A stretch of DNA of 63,193 nucleotides from Erysipelotrichaceae bacterium. Its GTDB lineage: Bacteria > Bacillota_I > Bacilli_A > Erysipelotrichales > Erysipelotrichaceae. The notes beneath the pieces were generated by a model. The model did not search any database. It saw only the letters and a list, made by a program, of their open reading frames with translations, and had not been told where the DNA came from. Each line of letters opens with the position of its first letter. Position 1 is the first letter of the stretch. Made by a program: the position numbers and the translations under genes. Shown one piece after another: positions 46,726-55,335 of the stretch. Location: assembly GCA_030525525.1 (NCBI GenBank), contig JAUNEN010000011.1, positions 1 to 63,193 on the forward strand. The letters run 5' to 3'.

Positions 46726-46760
46726 AAAAAGCGGAAGGCTTCAATGGTCTTCCGCTTTCA
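46726..46760. terminator. Bidirectional terminator between esterase and apbE genes
   Basis: AAAGCGGAAG (46729-46738) pairs with CTTCCGCTTT (46750-46759). A and T runs flank both sides. Confidence 0.88.
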
Positions 46761-47888
46761 TCTTGCAAATGTGATCAGATCCCTGATTCCGTCTGTGTAA
46801 ACACAATGGTAATCACCTGAATCATGACCTTCTTCATTCTGTGTTCTGTCACTGTCCATGATCCAGACTGCTTCGGCGCTGTTTCCGGTTTTTTCCGTAT
46901 ATTCTTCAAGGACTTTCTTTCCGTCTTCAATGCTTAGAGTAAACAATGTTGTGGAAAGACAGTCAGCTGCCGAAGAGTCGGGAGTGATGATGGAAACACT
47001 GTGGTAGTAATCGGCCGGCTTCAATGTTTTCGGGTCGATGATGTGGTGATATTTCTTTCCGTCTTCACCGGTATAGTAGCGTTCGTAGTCGCCGCTGGTG
47101 ACAAATGAGCCGCTTCCTTTCATTGTGACCGTGCAGTAGATGCTTGAACCGTCGGCAGGATCGGCGATTCCGATCACCCAGTCGCTGCCATCCGGTTTTG
47201 TACCGACAGTGCGGATGTTGCGGCCGGCATTGACGGTTGTGCAGATGACATCGGCATCTTCCATATACCTGCCGATCATCTCTGCTGCATATCCCTTTGC
47301 GATTCCGCCGACATCGAGTGAAACATGCGGATCGGTGATATAGACGGTGCTGTCTTCTTCATTGATGACGACCTTGTCCCATCCGCTGTAAACGGCAGCT
47401 TCTTTGAGCTCTTCATCGGTCGGTACGGGAGCGTTTTTGCCTTCGGCATTGAGTTCGATTCCCGCGTCCCGGTATTCATGCCATACTTTCAGCAAAGAGC
47501 CGATCGTGATGTCAAAGGCACCGCCCGAAATTTCATGGAAGCTTTTTGCTTCCCTGAGCATGTCGATGATGTCGGAGCTGACTTTCACCGGGGCTATCCC
47601 GGCATTGTCGTTGATCGTTTTGAGGTTATAGAGACCTTCATAATCGTTGTAAATGTCAAACTGATCGTTGCAGTTTCTGAACATATCCGTGCATGTTCTG
47701 AAATATGAATCCATCTGATCGTGGTCATAGCCGAATTCGATCAGCTGAAAGACAGTGTCAAATCCGGCATCCACGGAGATGTTGGTGTACTTTTCAGGTT
47801 CTTCTGTTTTTTCGGCGGGAACATTGTCTGCACATCCGCAAAAAAGCGAAAGGGCAAACACTCCCGCGAGTATTCTGTTTTTTCTCAT
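46758..47888 (-). CDS. apbE: FAD:protein FMN transferase ApbE (lipoprotein)
   Basis: 376-residue extracytoplasmic flavin transferase that attaches FMN covalently to Thr/Ser in proteins such as RnfD and RnfG. The signal peptide ends in lipobox LFCGC. ApbE marks: SGGAFDITIGSLLKVW, a DVGGIAKGYAAEMIGRYM helix, NAGRNIRTVG, and SFVTSGDYERYY followed by YHHIIDPKTLKP. ATG 47888 is chosen over the longer frame. It lies 7 bases after an extended -10, so it is probably leaderless. It is divergent from the rnf operon, whose subunits are its likely targets. Confidence 0.93.
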   Translation of the reverse strand: MRKNRILAGVFALSLFCGCADNVPAEKTEEPEKYTNISVDAGFDTVFQLIEFGYDHDQMDSYFRTCTDMFRNCNDQFDIYNDYEGLYNLKTINDNAGIAPVKVSSDIIDMLREAKSFHEISGGAFDITIGSLLKVWHEYRDAGIELNAEGKNAPVPTDEELKEAAVYSGWDKVVINEEDSTVYITDPHVSLDVGGIAKGYAAEMIGRYMEDADVICTTVNAGRNIRTVGTKPDGSDWVIGIADPADGSSIYCTVTMKGSGSFVTSGDYERYYTGEDGKKYHHIIDPKTLKPADYYHSVSIITPDSSAADCLSTTLFTLSIEDGKKVLEEYTEKTGNSAEAVWIMDSDRTQNEEGHDSGDYHCVYTDGIRDLITFAR

Positions 47889-47895
47889 AGACAGG

Positions 47896-47970
47896 AGTAT
47901 ATCATAAAAATGAAATACACTGCTTCCGTGTTTGTATTTAGCGCACATTCATAATAAACGATGATATAAT
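47896..47970. promoter_or_regulatory. Divergent apbE/rnf promoter region
   Basis: Minus strand TGATATACT (47904-47896) ends 7 bases before the apbE ATG. Plus strand TGATATAAT (47962-47970) precedes rnfC by 38 bases. Both are extended -10 boxes. The 120-base gap (47889-48008) is therefore a shared control region. Confidence 0.65.
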
Positions 47971-48008: not shown

Positions 48009-49325
48009 ATGTCAATTCTTACAGGACCGATGAATCATCACCTGGACGGACATAAGGAATTAACCAAGCACAAGGATGTATTGAAAACAATTGATCCTGA
48101 TCAGGTTTTTATTCCTCTTGTAAACGGCAACGCGCCCTGCAACGCGCTTGTTTCCGTCGGTGACGAAGTAAAAGTCGGTACAAAAATTGCGGAAAGAAAT
48201 GATCATTTCTATGTTCCGCTGTTTTCACCTGTCTCCGGTACAGTGACAGGTGTTGAAAAGTTTATGACAGCCTCGATGGGCCAGGCTCAGCATCTGGTCA
48301 TCCAGAATGATCATAAACATGAAGCAGTACGTGCATTTGCGCCGTTTGATTATGAAACGGCAAGCTGGGAAGAACTTCTCGATTTCGTCAGGAATTCCGG
48401 TATGGTCGGACTTGGCGGAGCAGGCTTCCCGACCTATGTCAAATATCTCAAACCGGAAAATGTCGAACTGTTTGTCGTCAATGCAGTTGAATGCGAACCG
48501 TATCTGACAGCCGATTATAAGAATATCGAAGAAAATATCGGACTCCTCAAAACCGGTACGCTCGCTCTCTTCAAGCTTTCCAAGGCAGCCAAAGGATGCG
48601 TTGCCATCAAGGAAGATAAAGTTGAACAGATCGAAGAGCTGAAGAAGGCATTCGCAGGAACACCGATCGAAATCAGAACCGTTCCCGATCTCTATCCGAT
48701 GGGCTGGGAAAGAACACTGGTCTATCAGCTGACAAAGAAGAGATATGACAAACTTCCGATTGAGGCCGGATGCATTCTCAACAATGCATCAACAGCGATT
48801 GCACTCGGTAATGCGATTGATAACGGCATGCCGATCACTCACAAGTATGTGACGGTTTCCGGTGATGCACTGAACAATCCGCAGAACGTATATGTTCCGG
48901 TCGGAACACGTGCAAGCGTGATCATCGATGCGGTCGGCGGCTATAAAGAGGGAACAGAAAATGTTCTTCTGATTGCCGGCGGACCGATGATGGGCAAAGC
49001 AATCCCGAACGATAAGTTTGTCATCATGCCGCAAAGCAACGGCTTAACTGTTCTCAACAACAAGCCGAAGGAAGAGGTCAAGTGCCTGCGCTGCGGGCGC
49101 TGCACAGAGACATGCCCGAGCGGACTTCAGCCTGTCCGTATCGCGATGAGCGCGGCAATCTTCGATGAAGAAGAAATCATGAAGCTTTCAGTCATGGACT
49201 GCATCGAGTGCGGTATGTGCACATGGATCTGTCCTTCCAAGATTGATGTCACCGAAAATGTCAGAAGAGCGAAGAATTTCGTCAGAACCAGAATGGCGAT
49301 CAGGGCAAAGGAGGCAAAGAAATAA
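48009..49325 (+). CDS. rnfC: Rnf electron transport complex subunit C
   Basis: 438-residue cytoplasmic NADH-oxidising subunit with FMN and two [4Fe-4S] clusters. Sites: nucleotide/FMN region GMVGLGGAGFPTYVKY and NAVECEPYLTADYK; clusters CLRCGRCTETCPSGL (about 357-370) and CIECGMCTWICPSK (about 396-409). Residues 1-80 form the barrel-sandwich domain. First gene of the rnf operon; the stop overlaps the rnfD start by one base. Length is normal. Confidence 0.96.
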   Translation: MSILTGPMNHHLDGHKELTKHKDVLKTIDPDQVFIPLVNGNAPCNALVSVGDEVKVGTKIAERNDHFYVPLFSPVSGTVTGVEKFMTASMGQAQHLVIQNDHKHEAVRAFAPFDYETASWEELLDFVRNSGMVGLGGAGFPTYVKYLKPENVELFVVNAVECEPYLTADYKNIEENIGLLKTGTLALFKLSKAAKGCVAIKEDKVEQIEELKKAFAGTPIEIRTVPDLYPMGWERTLVYQLTKKRYDKLPIEAGCILNNASTAIALGNAIDNGMPITHKYVTVSGDALNNPQNVYVPVGTRASVIIDAVGGYKEGTENVLLIAGGPMMGKAIPNDKFVIMPQSNGLTVLNNKPKEEVKCLRCGRCTETCPSGLQPVRIAMSAAIFDEEEIMKLSVMDCIECGMCTWICPSKIDVTENVRRAKNFVRTRMAIRAKEAKK

Positions 49326-50797
49326 TGAAATTTACATATAAGCCTTCACCCAACTACCGCAACACGCAGTCAACCGGCGGGATCATGTTCGATCTCACCA
49401 TGTGCTTATGTGCAGTGGTTCTGTTCTCGGCAGTTTATTACAGCATTGCCTATGGCTTTGCATACGGTCTCAGAGTCATTCTGATGACACTTGTTTCATT
49501 GATTGCGGCAATCGGTACCGAAGCAGTTTACTTCAGGATGCGCGGCCGTGAAGTGAAGAAGGAAATTCTTCATTCCTACGGCTGGGTTACCGCTCTCATT
49601 CTCACACTCATCACACGTCTTGATGTCAGCTATTATGCACTGTTTGTCGGCACGGTCGTTGCGATCATCATCGGCAAGCTCGTCTTCGGCGGTTTCGGTC
49701 AGAATATCTTCAACCCGGCCGCATTCGGCGAAGCGCTGATCATGAACAGCTTTTCGGCAAGCAAGAGCGCACAGGTAACAGCAGATGTCTTCTCCGGTGC
49801 CACTCCGATGGCTGCGATGAATTCCAATAACTGGATTCTCTCATCCAGTGCAATGGGCAACTTCATCAAGGGCTTCGGCGGCTGGGGCGGACTGCTTGTC
49901 GGCTCATATCCGAGCGTCATCGGCGGCAGCTGCGCACTGCTGATTCTCTTGTGCGGAGTATATCTCTTATGGAGAAAAGATATTGACTGGCATCTGTCAG
50001 TAACATATCTCATCACCGTCTTCTGCGTTTCACTTGTTGTCGGTCTCATCAAAGGCGCCGGCATCAACTATGCAATCTTCAATGTCATCAGCGGCGGCGT
50101 TCTCTTCGGAACAGTCTTCATGATGACCGACCCGGTCACCACACCGATCACGATTCCCGGCCGTATGGTCTTCGCAGTCGGTTGTGCTGCACTGACACTG
50201 ATTCTCAGATGGAAATCCAATCTTCCGGATGGCGTTCTGTTCTCAATCCTGTTAATGAATATGCTGACACCGGCAATCGACAAGCTGGTCGACGGCAACC
50301 AGATCAAGAACCAGGTACAGATCCGCCGCAAGGTTGTCTATACTTCAATCGTTGTCATCCTGGCAGCGCTTGGCGTCGGTATGACTCTTGACAAGGTCGC
50401 TGCCGAAACACCGGCATCTTCCGATGCGGCTGCTGAAACAAGCGAGCCGGCAGGAATGGCACTGGAAGACTTCAGTGCAAATGAAGCGGGCTGCCGAGTC
50501 TACAGCAATGTCGATGACACAGCTTATGTCTATCACTGCTCGGCAAAGGGCTTTGAAGGCACAAACAAGGCAACAATCACAGTTGATGCAACAAAGGGAA
50601 CAATCACTTCCGTCGAAGTGACTGACTTCGGCGACACAACAGGCGTCGGCGATGCAGCAACAACAGCCGATGAGCTGAAGCGTTATGAAAATGCGACAAT
50701 CAACTCATCGATTGATGCAACGGCAGGTGCAACTTACACAAGCGCATCCATCAGAGCCATGGCAGCCAAAGCGCTGAATATGGCCGCCGGAAAGTGA
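49325..50797 (+). CDS. rnfD: Rnf subunit D with C-terminal extra domain
   Basis: 490 residues; ordinary RnfD is about 310-350. Residues 1-350 are the polytopic NqrB/RnfD part. It has the FMN attachment motif SGAT at Thr160 (DVFSGATPMAAMN). After a Ser/Ala/Glu linker (about 362-377), residues 378-490 form an extra outward-facing domain with an ANEAGCRVY start and a DATAGATYTSASIRAM end. Thr470 lies where FMN-bind domains carry flavin. The domain matches domain 3 of RnfG at about 74 of 110 positions by hand alignment. There is no frameshift and the reading frame is intact. Confidence 0.9.
   Translation: MKFTYKPSPNYRNTQSTGGIMFDLTMCLCAVVLFSAVYYSIAYGFAYGLRVILMTLVSLIAAIGTEAVYFRMRGREVKKEILHSYGWVTALILTLITRLDVSYYALFVGTVVAIIIGKLVFGGFGQNIFNPAAFGEALIMNSFSASKSAQVTADVFSGATPMAAMNSNNWILSSSAMGNFIKGFGGWGGLLVGSYPSVIGGSCALLILLCGVYLLWRKDIDWHLSVTYLITVFCVSLVVGLIKGAGINYAIFNVISGGVLFGTVFMMTDPVTTPITIPGRMVFAVGCAALTLILRWKSNLPDGVLFSILLMNMLTPAIDKLVDGNQIKNQVQIRRKVVYTSIVVILAALGVGMTLDKVAAETPASSDAAAETSEPAGMALEDFSANEAGCRVYSNVDDTAYVYHCSAKGFEGTNKATITVDATKGTITSVEVTDFGDTTGVGDAATTADELKRYENATINSSIDATAGATYTSASIRAMAAKALNMAAGK
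50456..50797 (+). repeat. Extra FMN-bind-like domain unit 1 (in rnfD)
   Basis: Encodes RnfD residues 378-490. It is the first of three homologous coding units, the others being in rnfG at about 51414-51707 and 51780-52112. Shared landmarks are a Cys in NEAGC, a second Cys in YHCSAKGFEGTNKA, GVGDAATTADEL, and a DATAGATYTSASIRAMAA end. Confidence 0.85.
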
Positions 50798-50810
50798 GGA
50801 GGGTATGAAG

Positions 50811-52112
50811 ATGGGAAAATTAGATCATAACTCTGCTCTCTATAAAGCAATTCTGCTCGGCGTTCTCTGCGCAGTATGCGGACTTCTGCTGTCGGTCGCA
50901 AATGCGATCACGGCTCCGATCATTGCCGAGAATGCATTGGCAACTATCAAAGCAAGCCTGGAAGAAATCTATCCGGGTGCGACATTCAACGATGTCACGG
51001 ACAAGCTGATCGAAAAGGATGAGACAGGTCTGGTTGACGGTATCTATGAAGCAGAAGGTAAGGGATATGTCTTCACACTCCATGGCGTCGGCTACAACTC
51101 CAACGGATTCACCTTCATGGTCGGCTTCGACAATGACGGAAAGATTTCCGGATATACCGCACTCGAACAGCAGGAAACAAGCGGTATCGGTTCCCGTGCA
51201 TTCGATGATGAATATGTCAGCACAATCACTTCACTCACATCCGCCGATCCGATTCCTCTGCTCTCCGGTGCAACTCTGACATCAACAGCTGTTCAGAATG
51301 GCATCGATGCAGCCAAGGCAATCTTCAACGATGTGCAGGGAATCTCCTATGATCCCAACGCTCAGGCGGAAGTGCCTGAACAGCAGCCGTTCGGCAATGA
51401 AGATTACTCCAAGACAGATGTGACCTGCACGGAAGTCAGCAATGACGGCACAACAGCTGTTTACCACTGCACAGCCAAGGGCTTTGAAGGAACAAATGAA
51501 GCGGATGTTGAAATTGACCTTTCCACAGGCACAATCAAGTCCATCAAAGTTACAGCCTTCAATGACACTCCGGGCGTTGGCGACACAGCAACAGCGGATG
51601 CTGAACTGGCACGCTATGCAGGCAAGGGCTTAAGCGATGTGGTTGACTCAACAACCGGCGCAAGCTTCACAAGCCTTTCCTTAAGAGCGATGGCAGCCAA
51701 TGCACTTTCCGCCGCAACCGGTACTGAACTGGCCGGCGGCAGTGCTCCTGAAGCCGGCAGCGGAAGCGGACTTGGCAGTGAGGACTTCACAGCCAATGAA
51801 GCAGGATGCATCGTCTATACAAACCTTGATGATACTGCAGTTGAATACAAGTGCAGCGCCAAGGGCTATCAGGGAATAAACAAAGCGATTGTCACCGTTG
51901 ATACTACAAAGGGAACAGTCACCAATATCGAAATCACAGAATTCAATGACACTCCGGGTGTCGGCGATGCGGCAACAGCGGATACAGAGCTTGAACGCTA
52001 CAAGGGTGCAAGCCTTGAATCATCAGTTGATGCGACAACATCAGCGACATTCACCAGTGCTTCAATCCGTGCGATGATTGCGGCTGCCCTGAATATGGCA
52101 GCAGGCAGGTAA
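50811..52112 (+). CDS. rnfG: Rnf subunit G with three FMN-bind-like domains
   Basis: 433 residues from ATG 50811 (GGAGG 8 bases upstream; ATG 50805 is too close). Ordinary RnfG has about 190-220. One N-terminal membrane helix, then the usual FMN-bind domain ending in LLSGATLTS with Thr155 as likely FMN site. Two more domains follow: residues about 202-298, ending in DSTTGASFTS (Ser285), and about 324-433, ending in DATTSATFTS (Thr413), separated by a Gly/Ser linker. All face outside, reachable by ApbE. The first site is canonical; the two extra motifs are degenerate, so flavinylation there is a prediction. Confidence 0.9.
   Translation: MGKLDHNSALYKAILLGVLCAVCGLLLSVANAITAPIIAENALATIKASLEEIYPGATFNDVTDKLIEKDETGLVDGIYEAEGKGYVFTLHGVGYNSNGFTFMVGFDNDGKISGYTALEQQETSGIGSRAFDDEYVSTITSLTSADPIPLLSGATLTSTAVQNGIDAAKAIFNDVQGISYDPNAQAEVPEQQPFGNEDYSKTDVTCTEVSNDGTTAVYHCTAKGFEGTNEADVEIDLSTGTIKSIKVTAFNDTPGVGDTATADAELARYAGKGLSDVVDSTTGASFTSLSLRAMAANALSAATGTELAGGSAPEAGSGSGLGSEDFTANEAGCIVYTNLDDTAVEYKCSAKGYQGINKAIVTVDTTKGTVTNIEITEFNDTPGVGDAATADTELERYKGASLESSVDATTSATFTSASIRAMIAAALNMAAGR
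51414..51707 (+). repeat. Extra FMN-bind-like domain unit 2 (in rnfG)
   Basis: Homologous unit with DVTCTEVSNDGTTAVYHCTAKG, a second block GVGDTATADAEL, and the end DSTTGASFTSLSLRAMAA. It is the most diverged of the three copies. Confidence 0.8.
51780..52112 (+). repeat. Extra FMN-bind-like domain unit 3 (in rnfG)
   Basis: It aligns without gaps over 110 residues to the RnfD copy (about 67 percent identity by hand count), including EDFTANEAGC, VDTTKGTVTN and the shared end TSASIRAM...ALNMAAG. The two are near-duplicates. Confidence 0.85.
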
Positions 52113-52124
52113 GAGGAGGACCTT

Positions 52125-52784
52125 ATGAGCGAAAAGAAAGAAAAGAAACAGAGTCTGTTTACCAGGCTGTTAGTTGAAAACCCTGTCTTCGGTCTGTATC
52201 TGGGTATCTGCTCGGCACTGGCAATCACAACCAACATCAACAATGCGATCGGTATGGGAATTGCCGTTACGATCGTATTGACACTGTCCAATATTCTCGT
52301 TTCATCGATCAGAAACCTGACACCGAATGACATTCACATTCCGGTATATATCGTCATCATCGCAACGCTTGTTACAATCGTCGGCATGGTGATTCAGGCA
52401 TATACACCTTCGCTGTATTCGGCACTCGGCGCGTTCATCGACCTGATCGTTGTCAACTGCATTATCCTGGGAAGAGCGGAAGCATTCGCTTCCATGAATC
52501 CGATCGGTCCTTCCATCCTTGACGGTCTGACCATGGGATTCTCCTATACACTCAGTATCCTGACAATGTCTTTCTTCAGACAGATCCTCGGTACAGGTGT
52601 TCTCTCACTTTCCAATCCGTTTACAAATGCGGAGATCTTCTCACTGAGACTGATCCCGGAAGGATTTGAACTTCCTTTCTTCAAAGAACAGTTCGGCGCA
52701 TTCATCACATTCGCATGTCTGGCAGCTGCTGTTTCCGCATACAAGACACATGTTGAAAATAAGGAGAAGAGTGCTGAATTATGA
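52125..52784 (+). CDS. rnfE: Rnf subunit E
   Basis: 219-residue membrane subunit, six helices. With RnfA it forms the inner membrane electron channel that holds a [2Fe-2S] centre between half-sites. The two cysteines are visible in LGICSALAITTN and IVVNCIILGRAEAFAS. GGAGG precedes ATG. The stop overlaps the rnfA start (ATGA). Confidence 0.95.
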   Translation: MSEKKEKKQSLFTRLLVENPVFGLYLGICSALAITTNINNAIGMGIAVTIVLTLSNILVSSIRNLTPNDIHIPVYIVIIATLVTIVGMVIQAYTPSLYSALGAFIDLIVVNCIILGRAEAFASMNPIGPSILDGLTMGFSYTLSILTMSFFRQILGTGVLSLSNPFTNAEIFSLRLIPEGFELPFFKEQFGAFITFACLAAAVSAYKTHVENKEKSAEL

Positions 52785-53353
52785 ACCTGTTTACATTGTT
52801 CATCAGCGCAATGCTGATCAATAACATTATTCTTTCCAAATTCATCGGCATGTGCCCGTTCATGGGTGTTTCCACAAAGATGGAATCTGCCGTCGGTATG
52901 GGTCTTGCGGTTATCTTCGTTGTCTTCTGTGCTTCGGTTCTGTCGTACGGTCTCTACTATGCGGTTCTTGAACCGTTGCATCTGGAATACATGAAGCTGA
53001 TCTGCTTCATCCTCGTCATTGCGGCATTCGTTCAGTTTGTCGAACTGTTCATCAAAAAGAACAGTCCGTCCCTGTATAAGCAGCTGGGTATCTATCTGCC
53101 TCTGATCACAACAAACTGTGCAGTTCTCTACGTCGCTCTCGACAACATCACACAGGAATACTCCCTGATTGAAACAATCGTCAACTCAATCGGTGTTCCG
53201 GCCGGATTCATGCTGATGCTGTGCATCTTCTCAACCATCCGTGAACGCTTAAGAGGAAACGATGTTCCCGAAGCATTCCAGGGAAATCCGATCGCATTCA
53301 TTATCGCTGCAATTATGGCTCTTGCTTTCTCGTCACTTGCGGGATTGGTATAA
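52781..53353 (+). CDS. rnfA: Rnf subunit A
   Basis: 190-residue membrane subunit, related to RnfE but with inverted orientation. Cluster cysteines are in KFIGMCPFMGVST and LITTNCAVLYVAL. Start LFISAMLINNIILSKF is typical. Normal length. Followed 3 bases later by a small Cys-rich membrane gene. Confidence 0.95.
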   Translation: MNLFTLFISAMLINNIILSKFIGMCPFMGVSTKMESAVGMGLAVIFVVFCASVLSYGLYYAVLEPLHLEYMKLICFILVIAAFVQFVELFIKKNSPSLYKQLGIYLPLITTNCAVLYVALDNITQEYSLIETIVNSIGVPAGFMLMLCIFSTIRERLRGNDVPEAFQGNPIAFIIAAIMALAFSSLAGLV

Positions 53354-53356
53354 GCC

Positions 53357-53554
53357 ATGCAGACGATCGTTGCAATTCTGATTGTACTGGTCCTGGTCGG
53401 ACTGAACGGTTTTCTCTACATCCGGAACAGACAGACGCCTGTTCCGGAAGGATGTGAAAATCTGAAGCCGGATTGTGCCGCATGCGGTATCGGGGACTGT
53501 GCACTCAGAGCAAAGTTTATGGAAATGAAAGAGGAAGAACATGGAGATCATTAA
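53357..53554 (+). CDS. Small Cys-rich membrane protein between rnfA and rnfB
   Basis: 65 residues. One N-terminal membrane helix (IVAILIVLVLVGLNGFLYI), then Cys33, Cys40, Cys43, Cys48 in EGCENLKPDCAACGIGDCALR and an acidic tail. The C-x2-C-x4-C spacing is the same as in the RnfB cluster domain (48-51-56). It could ligate an iron-sulfur cluster on the cytoplasmic side. No family is recognised with certainty. No good Shine-Dalgarno, so translation is likely coupled to rnfA. It overlaps rnfB by 14 bases. Confidence 0.75.
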   Translation: MQTIVAILIVLVLVGLNGFLYIRNRQTPVPEGCENLKPDCAACGIGDCALRAKFMEMKEEEHGDH

Positions 53555-53822
53555 AGCAGTATTATTGATGCTTGTTCTCGGTGCAGTGATCGGTATTCTT
53601 CTCGGAATTGCGAGTGTCAAGCTCTATGTCGAAGAAGATCACAGAGTCGAGGATGTTCTGGCAATGCTGCCGGGATACAACTGCGGCGGATGCGGAAACC
53701 CCGGATGTGCCGGTATGGCTGCCAAGCTTGTTGAAGGCGAAAGCACAATCGACAAGTGCAAGCCCTGCAAGGCTGATGCAAAGGCAGCTATCGTTGCTTA
53801 TCTGAAAGAGCACGCTGCATAA
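53541..53822 (+). CDS. rnfB: Short RnfB (membrane helix plus cluster domain only)
   Basis: 93 residues. A membrane helix (about 5-27) is followed by the RnfB-type four-cysteine domain CGGCGNPGCAGMAAKL (Cys48, 51, 56) with Cys73 in DKCKPC. Usual RnfB proteins have 170-450 residues because of two or more ferredoxin-like [4Fe-4S] pairs after this domain; they are missing. The region after the stop carries a terminator, and no other frame continues the gene, so it is not a simple frameshift. It would need a partner for ferredoxin docking. Confidence 0.85.
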   Translation: MEIIKAVLLMLVLGAVIGILLGIASVKLYVEEDHRVEDVLAMLPGYNCGGCGNPGCAGMAAKLVEGESTIDKCKPCKADAKAAIVAYLKEHAA

Positions 53823-53834
53823 AGAATCTGATGA

Positions 53835-53879
53835 AAAGATGGCGAGGAGGCTGAATCCGAAACCATCTTTTTTTCTTTC
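53835..53879 (+). terminator. Terminator of the rnf operon
   Basis: AAGATGG (53837-53843) pairs with CCATCTT (53864-53870), then TTTTTCTTTC. Confidence 0.8.
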
Positions 53880-53997
53880 TGAAATTGTTTCACGGAAATA
53901 TACAAAGTGTGGGATAATGGAAAACGTCCGCTGTCGGAAAATGAAACTCATAGATCATTTTTTCTTCCCTGAAGCAGCGGTCTCAAGGAGATTTTTT

Positions 53998-55335
53998 ATG
54001 AAGAAGAGAGAACGGCTCGGCAGCAGGCTGGGTTTTATTATGCTGTCTGCAGGATGTGCAATCGGATGCGGCAATGTCTGGAAATTCCCGTGGATGTGCG
54101 GGGAATACGGCGGCGGCAGCTTCATGGTGATGTACTTCCTGTTTCTTCTGATCCTCGGCTTGCCGGTACTGACGATGGAGTTTTCGGTAGGCAGAGCTGC
54201 TCAGAGCAGTCCGGTTCACATGTATCAGAAGCTGCAGAAACCGGGAGGAAAATGGGGACTGTTCGGCTATGTCTGCCTGCTTGGCAACATTGCCCTGATG
54301 GCATTCTATTGTGTCGTATCCGGCTGGATTCTTTACTACTTTTATAAATTCGCAGTCGGAGATACTGCTTCGCTTGGATTTGTATCCATGATTCAGAATC
54401 CGAAAATCAATGTGATTTCACTCTTCATCACCGTTGCGGCAGCATTCATCATTCTCAGCTTCAATCTGCAAAGCGGGCTGGAGAGGATTACGAAAGTCAT
54501 GATGATCACGCTGATGATTCTGATGTGCGTTCTTGCCGTGCACAGCCTCAGCCTGCCCGGTGCGAAGGAAGGACTGAAGTTCTATCTGGTTCCCGATTTC
54601 TCCAAAATCAGTCTGAAAACAGCAGTCGGCGCCATGAACCAGGCATTCTTCACGCTTTCCGTCGGCATGGGTTCCATGGCAATATTCGGCAGCTATATTG
54701 ACAAGAAATGCAGGCTCACAACCGAAGCGCTCAATGTCATTCTGCTTGATACGATGGTTGCGGTGATTGCCGGACTGATCATGTTTCCGGCATGCTTCAC
54801 ATATGGCGTGGAAGTGAATTCCGGACCGAGCCTTCTGTTTGATACCATGGCAACCGTTTTTGGCAATATGGCGATGGGCAGATGGTGGGGCATGCTGTTC
54901 TTCCTCTTCATGGTGTTTGCGGCAATGTCAACTGTACTGGGTGTCTGTGAGAACATCCTTGCGATGGTCAGAGAGATGACCGGCTGGGACAGACCGAAGG
55001 GCTGTATCGTCTGCGCAGTGATGATATTTACGCTCGGCTTAACGACGGCACTTGGCTTCAGCGTGATTCATTTCGAACCGTTTGCGCCGGGCAGCTCATG
55101 GCTTGATTTCTGGGATTTCATTGTTTCAACCAATATTCTTCCGCTCGGCTCATTATTGCTTGCACTGTTCTGCTGCAATGATGCCGGATGGGGCTGGGAT
55201 CATTTTGTAACCGAAGCAAATGAAGGAAAGGGAATGAAGGTGAAGGAATGGATGAAACCGCTGTTTCGCTGTGTTGTTCCGATTGTCATCGCATTTGTTT
55301 ATATATATGGTCTCTTCACCTTCAAGTGGCATTGA
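53998..55335 (+). CDS. Sodium-dependent NSS-family (SNF) transporter
   Basis: 445-residue Na+-coupled amino acid or amine importer. Marks: RLGFIMLSAGCAIGCGNVWKFPW (the unwound helix 1 and sodium site), YGGGSFMVMYF, GLPVLTMEFSVG, and a later MNQAFFTLSVGMGSMAIFGSY. The 11-helix layout, shorter than 12-helix neurotransmitter carriers, is usual in bacteria. ATG 53998 follows TCAAGGAGA; the longer frame from 53839 overlaps the rnf terminator. The substrate cannot be assigned. Confidence 0.93.
   Translation: MKKRERLGSRLGFIMLSAGCAIGCGNVWKFPWMCGEYGGGSFMVMYFLFLLILGLPVLTMEFSVGRAAQSSPVHMYQKLQKPGGKWGLFGYVCLLGNIALMAFYCVVSGWILYYFYKFAVGDTASLGFVSMIQNPKINVISLFITVAAAFIILSFNLQSGLERITKVMMITLMILMCVLAVHSLSLPGAKEGLKFYLVPDFSKISLKTAVGAMNQAFFTLSVGMGSMAIFGSYIDKKCRLTTEALNVILLDTMVAVIAGLIMFPACFTYGVEVNSGPSLLFDTMATVFGNMAMGRWWGMLFFLFMVFAAMSTVLGVCENILAMVREMTGWDRPKGCIVCAVMIFTLGLTTALGFSVIHFEPFAPGSSWLDFWDFIVSTNILPLGSLLLALFCCNDAGWGWDHFVTEANEGKGMKVKEWMKPLFRCVVPIVIAFVYIYGLFTFKWH

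Follow-up and report, generated by a model that had tools for sequence, protein, structure and literature searches.

Extra FMN_bind domains on RnfD and RnfG in an Erysipelotrichaceae Rnf complex, and cassette exchange between rnfD and rnfG among relatives

The rnf operon of an Erysipelotrichaceae bacterium encodes an Rnf complex in which RnfD carries an additional transmembrane helix followed by an FMN_bind domain, and RnfG carries two further FMN_bind domains behind its native one. Among relatives, the acceptor residues of these extra domains are conserved, the domains are under purifying selection, and the terminal domains of RnfD and RnfG (hereafter cassettes) are homogenised within genomes at the DNA level. 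In the usual description, Rnf forms a closed U that leads electrons from ferredoxin to NAD+. The extra flavin tails and the copying between rnfD and rnfG suggest a built-in wire that could reach enzymes outside the cell.

Operon layout and a short RnfB

The window, which is the whole 63,193-nt stretch of DNA that was analysed, contains a complete rnf operon in the order rnfC-D-G-E-A-B (48009-53822) with a divergent apbE gene (Table 1). TIGR/NCBIfam and Pfam matches indicated that all six Rnf subunits (RnfA, B, C, D, E and G) are encoded together, with TIGR rnf scores slightly below cut-off for RnfD (194.7 bits against 207.05), RnfG (88.3 against 102), RnfE (193.7 against 213.4) and RnfB (61.7 against 68.7). 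Genome-wide family searches, which covered FMN_bind, FAD_binding_2, FeS and ApbE, identified a single ApbE gene, the one adjoining rnf, and its divergent position recurs in most relatives. The visible signal peptide of the product ends in a lipobox-like LFCGC. The genus, from rumen and gut, is a Bulleidia/Solobacterium-like group within the Erysipelotrichaceae. Among named records, Erysipelotrichaceae bacterium NK3D112 lies nearest, with an RnfD that is 87% identical. Directly 3′ of rnfB lies a gene of the sodium:neurotransmitter symporter family (53839-55335), an arrangement shared with the closest relatives only (L074, L111 and L112).

Table 1. Features of the rnf region, in window coordinates.
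Feature	Position	Strand	Evidence
apbE (FAD:protein FMN transferase)	46758..47948	-	Pfam ApbE, E 7.1e-69
rnfC	48009..49325	+	TIGR01945, 364 bits, above cut-off
rnfD with C-terminal FMN_bind extension, 490 aa	49325..50797	+	Pfam, AlphaFold model
Canonical RnfD acceptor Thr160 (DVFSGAT)	49802..49804	+	A159, T160 and P161 invariant in 20 relatives
Extra (11th) RnfD transmembrane helix, residues 337-355	50333..50389	+	Hydropathy; AlphaFold model helix 330-353
Flexible linker of RnfD, residues 359-375	50399..50449	+	pLDDT <50
RnfD extension FMN_bind domain, residues 381-490	50465..50794	+	PF04205; 74/110 identical to RnfG domain 3
Putative acceptor Thr470 (DATAGAT), N end of RnfD last helix	50732..50734	+	Model; Ser/Thr in 80/80 tail domains
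rnfG with three FMN_bind domains, 435 aa	50805..52112	+	Pfam, AlphaFold model
RnfG domain 1 (native), acceptor Thr157 at 51273-51275	51108..51314	+	PF04205, genome scan
RnfG domain 2 (extra), acceptor Ser287 at 51663-51665 (DSTTGAS)	51480..51710	+	PF04205, genome scan
RnfG domain 3 (extra), acceptor Thr415 at 52047-52049 (DATTSAT)	51864..52094	+	PF04205, genome scan
rnfE	52125..52784	+	PRK12405, 217.8 bits, above cut-off
rnfA	52781..53353	+	TIGR01943, 242.9 bits, above cut-off
rnfB, 93 aa: membrane helix and one FeS domain (PF04060), without ferredoxin-type domains	53541..53822	+	Pfam/NCBIfam

At 93 aa, RnfB is far shorter than the solved RnfBs, which measure 174-333 aa, and its one PF04060 domain stands in place of the ferredoxin-type multi-cluster entry domain. 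Because its RnfB carries this single FeS domain, the complex is an Rnf of variant type and not a typical Rnf. RnfB proteins of about 90-105 aa, with one FeS domain and no ferredoxin domain, occur across this Bacilli branch (L039-L098 and L111-L220), and the short form is general there except in the fusion type described below. A second RnfB with ferredoxin domains was considered, and the one other FeS-domain protein examined in the genome proved to be hydrogenase-like. Electrons from soluble ferredoxin would presumably reach the RnfA/E cluster through the single [4Fe-4S] cluster, and a one-cluster RnfB prompts one to ask how small an electron-entry module can be.

Extra FMN_bind domains and their acceptor sites

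Pfam analysis placed NQR2_RnfD_RnfE at residues 6-326 of RnfD (E 1.1e-71) and FMN_bind (PF04205) at 409-485 (E 1.7e-10, 41.8 bits with a cut-off of 22), and found three FMN_bind stretches in RnfG (E 4.8e-32). In the whole-genome scan, the domain in rnfD (50549-50779) and the three in rnfG each scored above the curated cut-off, confirming the initial annotation, which had proposed one added C-terminal domain on RnfD and two on RnfG and had called for such a profile search. The RnfG profile also matches the solved RnfG 7zc6_G (E 1.4e-18, positions 8-173). The RnfD tail and RnfG domain 3 align without gaps with 67% identity, exactly the 74 of 110 residues that had been counted by hand, and RnfG domain 2 is 51-52% identical to each of them. 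Since RnfG domain 1 shares only 16-19% identity with any extra domain, the extra domains form one family distinct from the native RnfG domain. Native domain 1 and the secreted reductases discussed below were both considered as the source of this family; identity to both is approximately 15-30%, which leaves the choice undecided.

AlphaFold predicted separate FMN_bind folds on both proteins, with each acceptor opening the last helix of its domain. In the RnfD tail, the strands lie between residues 389 and 434 and the last helix spans 470-487, beginning with T470. In the RnfG model, an N-terminal helix, whose membrane segment is of low confidence, is accompanied by three FMN_bind folds that stand apart from one another, and T157, S287 and T415 occupy the equivalent position in them. 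The fold of the extra domains is confidently predicted and agrees with solved relatives, the closest being RnfG subunits and single domains of SaFMN3 and CbFMN4. A second structural comparison used the RnfD core alone and aligned 285 residues with Acetobacterium woodii 9eri_D (Z 32.1, rmsd 2.6).

Residues 14-332 of RnfD align with solved RnfD and NqrB chains, and the 11th helix lies beyond them. As both termini of known RnfD are cytosolic, and an extra helix preceded by the positive stretch IRRK is present here, the FMN_bind tail should be extracytosolic. This helix is kept even in genus members whose RnfD has no FMN_bind domain. The initial annotation, although borne out in part overall, had missed the helix, the single-cluster RnfB and the exchange of DNA between rnfD and rnfG.

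The published acceptor consensus, D-x-x-[S/T]-G-A-[S/T] (PMC12052999), is matched in full at RnfD T160 and RnfG S287, with a one-position departure at RnfD T470 (DATAGAT), RnfG T157 (PLLSGAT) and RnfG T415 (DATTSAT). Because of these deviations, FMN occupancy may be partial, above all at T415. Both canonical Rnf acceptor threonines are present, within SGAT motifs at T160 of RnfD and T157 of RnfG. The residue numbers first assigned were right for RnfD and two too low for RnfG (155, 285 and 413 in place of T157, S287 and T415), and the proposal that as many as five flavins could be covalently bound, where known Rnf has two, is fair as a number of sites rather than of measured flavins.

Conservation and cassette exchange among relatives

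At least one FMN_bind domain was present on RnfD in 40 of the 56 genomes tabulated, three of which have an RnfD-RnfG fusion. Within the Erysipelotrichaceae, the totals per protein range from 0 to 3 on RnfD and from 1 to 5 on RnfG, and copy number differs even between close relatives, with about 11 changes each on the tree. Holdemania filiformis DSM 12042 has the same architecture as the window (one FMN_bind domain on RnfD and three on RnfG), which is also found in H. massiliensis and Anaerorhabdus furcosa and, for RnfD, in Lactimicrobium massiliense. FMN_bind-tailed RnfD proteins occur in several further families of a sample drawn from the same phylum (f2, f7, f8, f11 and f13). Every complete RnfD tail domain (80 of 80, leaving out four cut by contig ends) has Ser or Thr at the acceptor position, as do 45/45 extra RnfG domains. 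Cassette dN/dS (Nei-Gojobori) was below 0.5 in every computable pair, with several dS values saturated. Conserved acceptors together with these ratios mean that the extra domains are maintained as flavin domains under purifying selection. The Pfam matches, the AlphaFold folds, the 125/125 acceptors and the sole ApbE gene beside rnf lend good support to the initial annotation where it identifies these as FMN_bind domains that carry ApbE acceptors.

Three genomes (G004, G031 and G041; loci L041, L067 and L077) encode an RnfD with a single RnfG-like tail, consisting of a helix and an FMN_bind domain that is the only one in the genome, and no separate rnfG was found in them. Their Rnf is a distant type within the same genus, with a long multi-cluster RnfB in two cases, and this fusion provides an independent hint of the extracytosolic topology. 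In three small genomes of family f11 (L207, L208 and L218), rnfG is absent from the rnf operon. Replacement of RnfG by the RnfD tail was rejected in this family, as a second FMN_bind frame of 131-166 aa sits elsewhere in the genome and rnfG may therefore simply be unlinked. In another Bacilli family, a 1444-aa protein with several FMN_bind domains occupies the RnfG position directly behind rnfD (L220:2649-6980, minus strand). RnfD proteins of 637-743 aa at L201, L202, L210 and L211 have tails that the FMN_bind profile misses and that keep GAT/GLT-like motifs; these are perhaps diverged FMN_bind domains with a lost or changed acceptor.

In several genomes the last RnfD domain is closer to the last RnfG domain of the same genome than to domains elsewhere. 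This similarity extends to the DNA, where rnfD and rnfG share tracts that are 99.7% identical over 376 nt (L053), 98.8% over 335 nt (L094), 96.4% over 419 nt (L040), 94.9% over 393 nt (L178) and 90.9% over 364 nt (L081). The tracts start in or near the linker and end 4-15 nt past both stop codons. Between the sister genomes of L053 and L081 the cassettes are saturated (dS 2.9 and 4.1), as against within-genome dS values of 0 and 0.25, which is the signature of terminal cassettes evolving in concert, by gene conversion or repeated unequal exchange. Assembly error is an unlikely source of the identical cassettes, since the single-contig genome G059 (L094) shows the same pattern. A recent exchange in the window itself was rejected; its pair is saturated (dS 3.6) and hence old. 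Recombination of cassettes also offers a mechanism for the variable domain copy number.

Possible functions and relation to known systems

Based on these sequence data, we give roughly even chances to a second, outward electron exit beside NAD+ reduction, through tethered flavins to secreted flavinylated reductases. ApbE would load covalent FMN onto each of the three added extracytosolic cassettes, one behind the 11th helix of RnfD and two behind the native RnfG domain. The native path would stay intact, running from the RnfB cluster through the RnfA/E [2Fe-2S] cluster, the RnfG FMN and the RnfD FMN and riboflavin to RnfC. The added flavins would be reduced by the flavin of RnfG or RnfD, and flexible tethers could then pass the electrons to extracytosolic acceptors, of which the secreted flavinylated reductases are the foremost candidates. 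Recombination exchanges the terminal cassettes of rnfD and rnfG, which hints that the two tails have one partner in common. A more elaborate version, which we put forward only tentatively, is an evolvable outward port whose interchangeable cassettes are kept alike by gene conversion and both dock on the same reductases, so that ferredoxin electrons are split between NAD+ and external acceptors. As SaFMN3 (PMC10339131) illustrates, FMN_bind domains in tandem may all have the same redox potential, so a downhill flavin wire is not a given.

Candidate partners are encoded in the genome, which has five FMN_bind domains on four proteins outside rnf. Three of these are reductase-like, with FAD_binding_2 and a lipoprotein-like signal (839, 598 and 641 aa), and the fourth is small, also with a lipoprotein-like signal; the reductase genes do not adjoin rnf. 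Within the genus, 0-1 non-Rnf FMN_bind domains occur in eight of the nine members without extra domains, compared with 0-17 in the 38 members with them (Mann-Whitney p 5e-4, kinship ignored). The link is not significant once relatedness is counted: as the tree yields just four independent changes (two in the expected direction, two with no difference and none opposite), it is suggestive only. Exceptions include G045, G055, G003 and G043, which have extra domains and 0-1 other FMN_bind domains, and G047, which has six others and no extra. The earlier proposal that this Rnf feeds electrons outward is plausible and backed by three secreted-looking reductases, with a co-occurrence trend that draws on only about four independent changes. 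If the tails export electrons, gut and rumen Firmicutes would possess an ion-coupled complex wired to secreted reductases, and the electron supply of such reductases would be explained.

The main rival to an outward exit is that the extra domains act as additional tethered shuttles from RnfA/E to RnfD, increasing turnover or robustness without any exit. An RnfD tail presumably can shuttle, because the lone RnfG-like tail is the sole FMN_bind domain in G004, G031 and G041. However, those genomes carry the distant Rnf type, and the window retains the native RnfG domain beside extra domains that are 16-19% identical to it yet strongly alike among themselves, so we regard this reading as unlikely. 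It is also rather improbable that the tails directly reduce inorganic or quinone-like acceptors or metals in a flavin-based extracellular electron transfer. The variable domain number would suit such a role, and multi-flavin proteins are proposed as long-range conduits in the article text of PMC8238504; against this, no cell-wall or metal-transport gene was recognised adjoining the rnf operon and the secreted flavinylated reductases are nearer candidates.

An electron store or capacitor that smooths the fermentation supply would also fit with as many as five sites for covalent flavin in each complex and with the equal redox potentials of the tandem SaFMN3 domains (PMC10339131). By our reasoning, the three additional flavins could take up no more than six electrons in each complex, a small amount beside the pools of soluble ferredoxin and NADH, which makes storage very unlikely. 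A neutral repeat expansion without function could draw on recombination that spreads domains and on copy numbers that vary among close relatives, but acceptors conserved throughout, dN/dS below 0.5 and presence in several families disfavour it to the point where we find it hardly credible.

Like the Rnf complexes of Acetobacterium woodii (9eri) and Clostridium tetanomorphum (7zc6), the complex described here has six subunits, the order rnfCDGEAB, canonical RnfD and RnfG acceptors and an RnfG that matches 7zc6_G and 9eri_G. Unlike them, it has an extra helix and an FMN_bind domain on RnfD, two more such domains on RnfG, and an RnfB with one FeS domain. An RnfG with several flavins and a proposed way out for electrons is not new: the text of Meheust et al. 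2021 (eLife; PMC8238504) reports multi-flavinylated RnfG in RNF clusters and proposes a second outward or bifurcated path, and thus has in common with our analysis both the several FMN_bind domains on RnfG and the outward idea. That text, supplementary tables aside, makes no mention of FMN_bind on RnfD, cassette exchange or a short RnfB. In the literature searched, outside which most subscription papers lie, we found no report of RnfD FMN_bind tails, the 11th helix, gene conversion of FMN_bind domains or cassette exchange between rnfD and rnfG, nor a paper on the short RnfB; priority for these features is not certain.

The extra domains resemble the secreted SaFMN3 and CbFMN4 (PMC10339131; 8p2a and 8p2b), ApbE-loaded multi-flavin proteins that have been produced and crystallised. 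These are strings of small FMN_bind domains carrying covalent FMN, and, among solved stand-alone relatives, their single domains come closest to the extra domains; unlike the RnfD and RnfG extensions, they are soluble secreted proteins outside any ion-pumping complex. An RnfD-like protein with an added domain and a proposed outward flow also features in Nqr/Rnf-like two-subunit systems, as described in the article texts of PMC11334425 and PMC8238504. The added domain of those systems is cytosolic and NAD-binding, whereas the present complex has its full set of subunits and an added domain that is predicted to be extracytosolic. Cassette exchange has also provided a natural series with 0 to 5 extra flavin sites, which includes the cultured human gut bacterium Holdemania filiformis.
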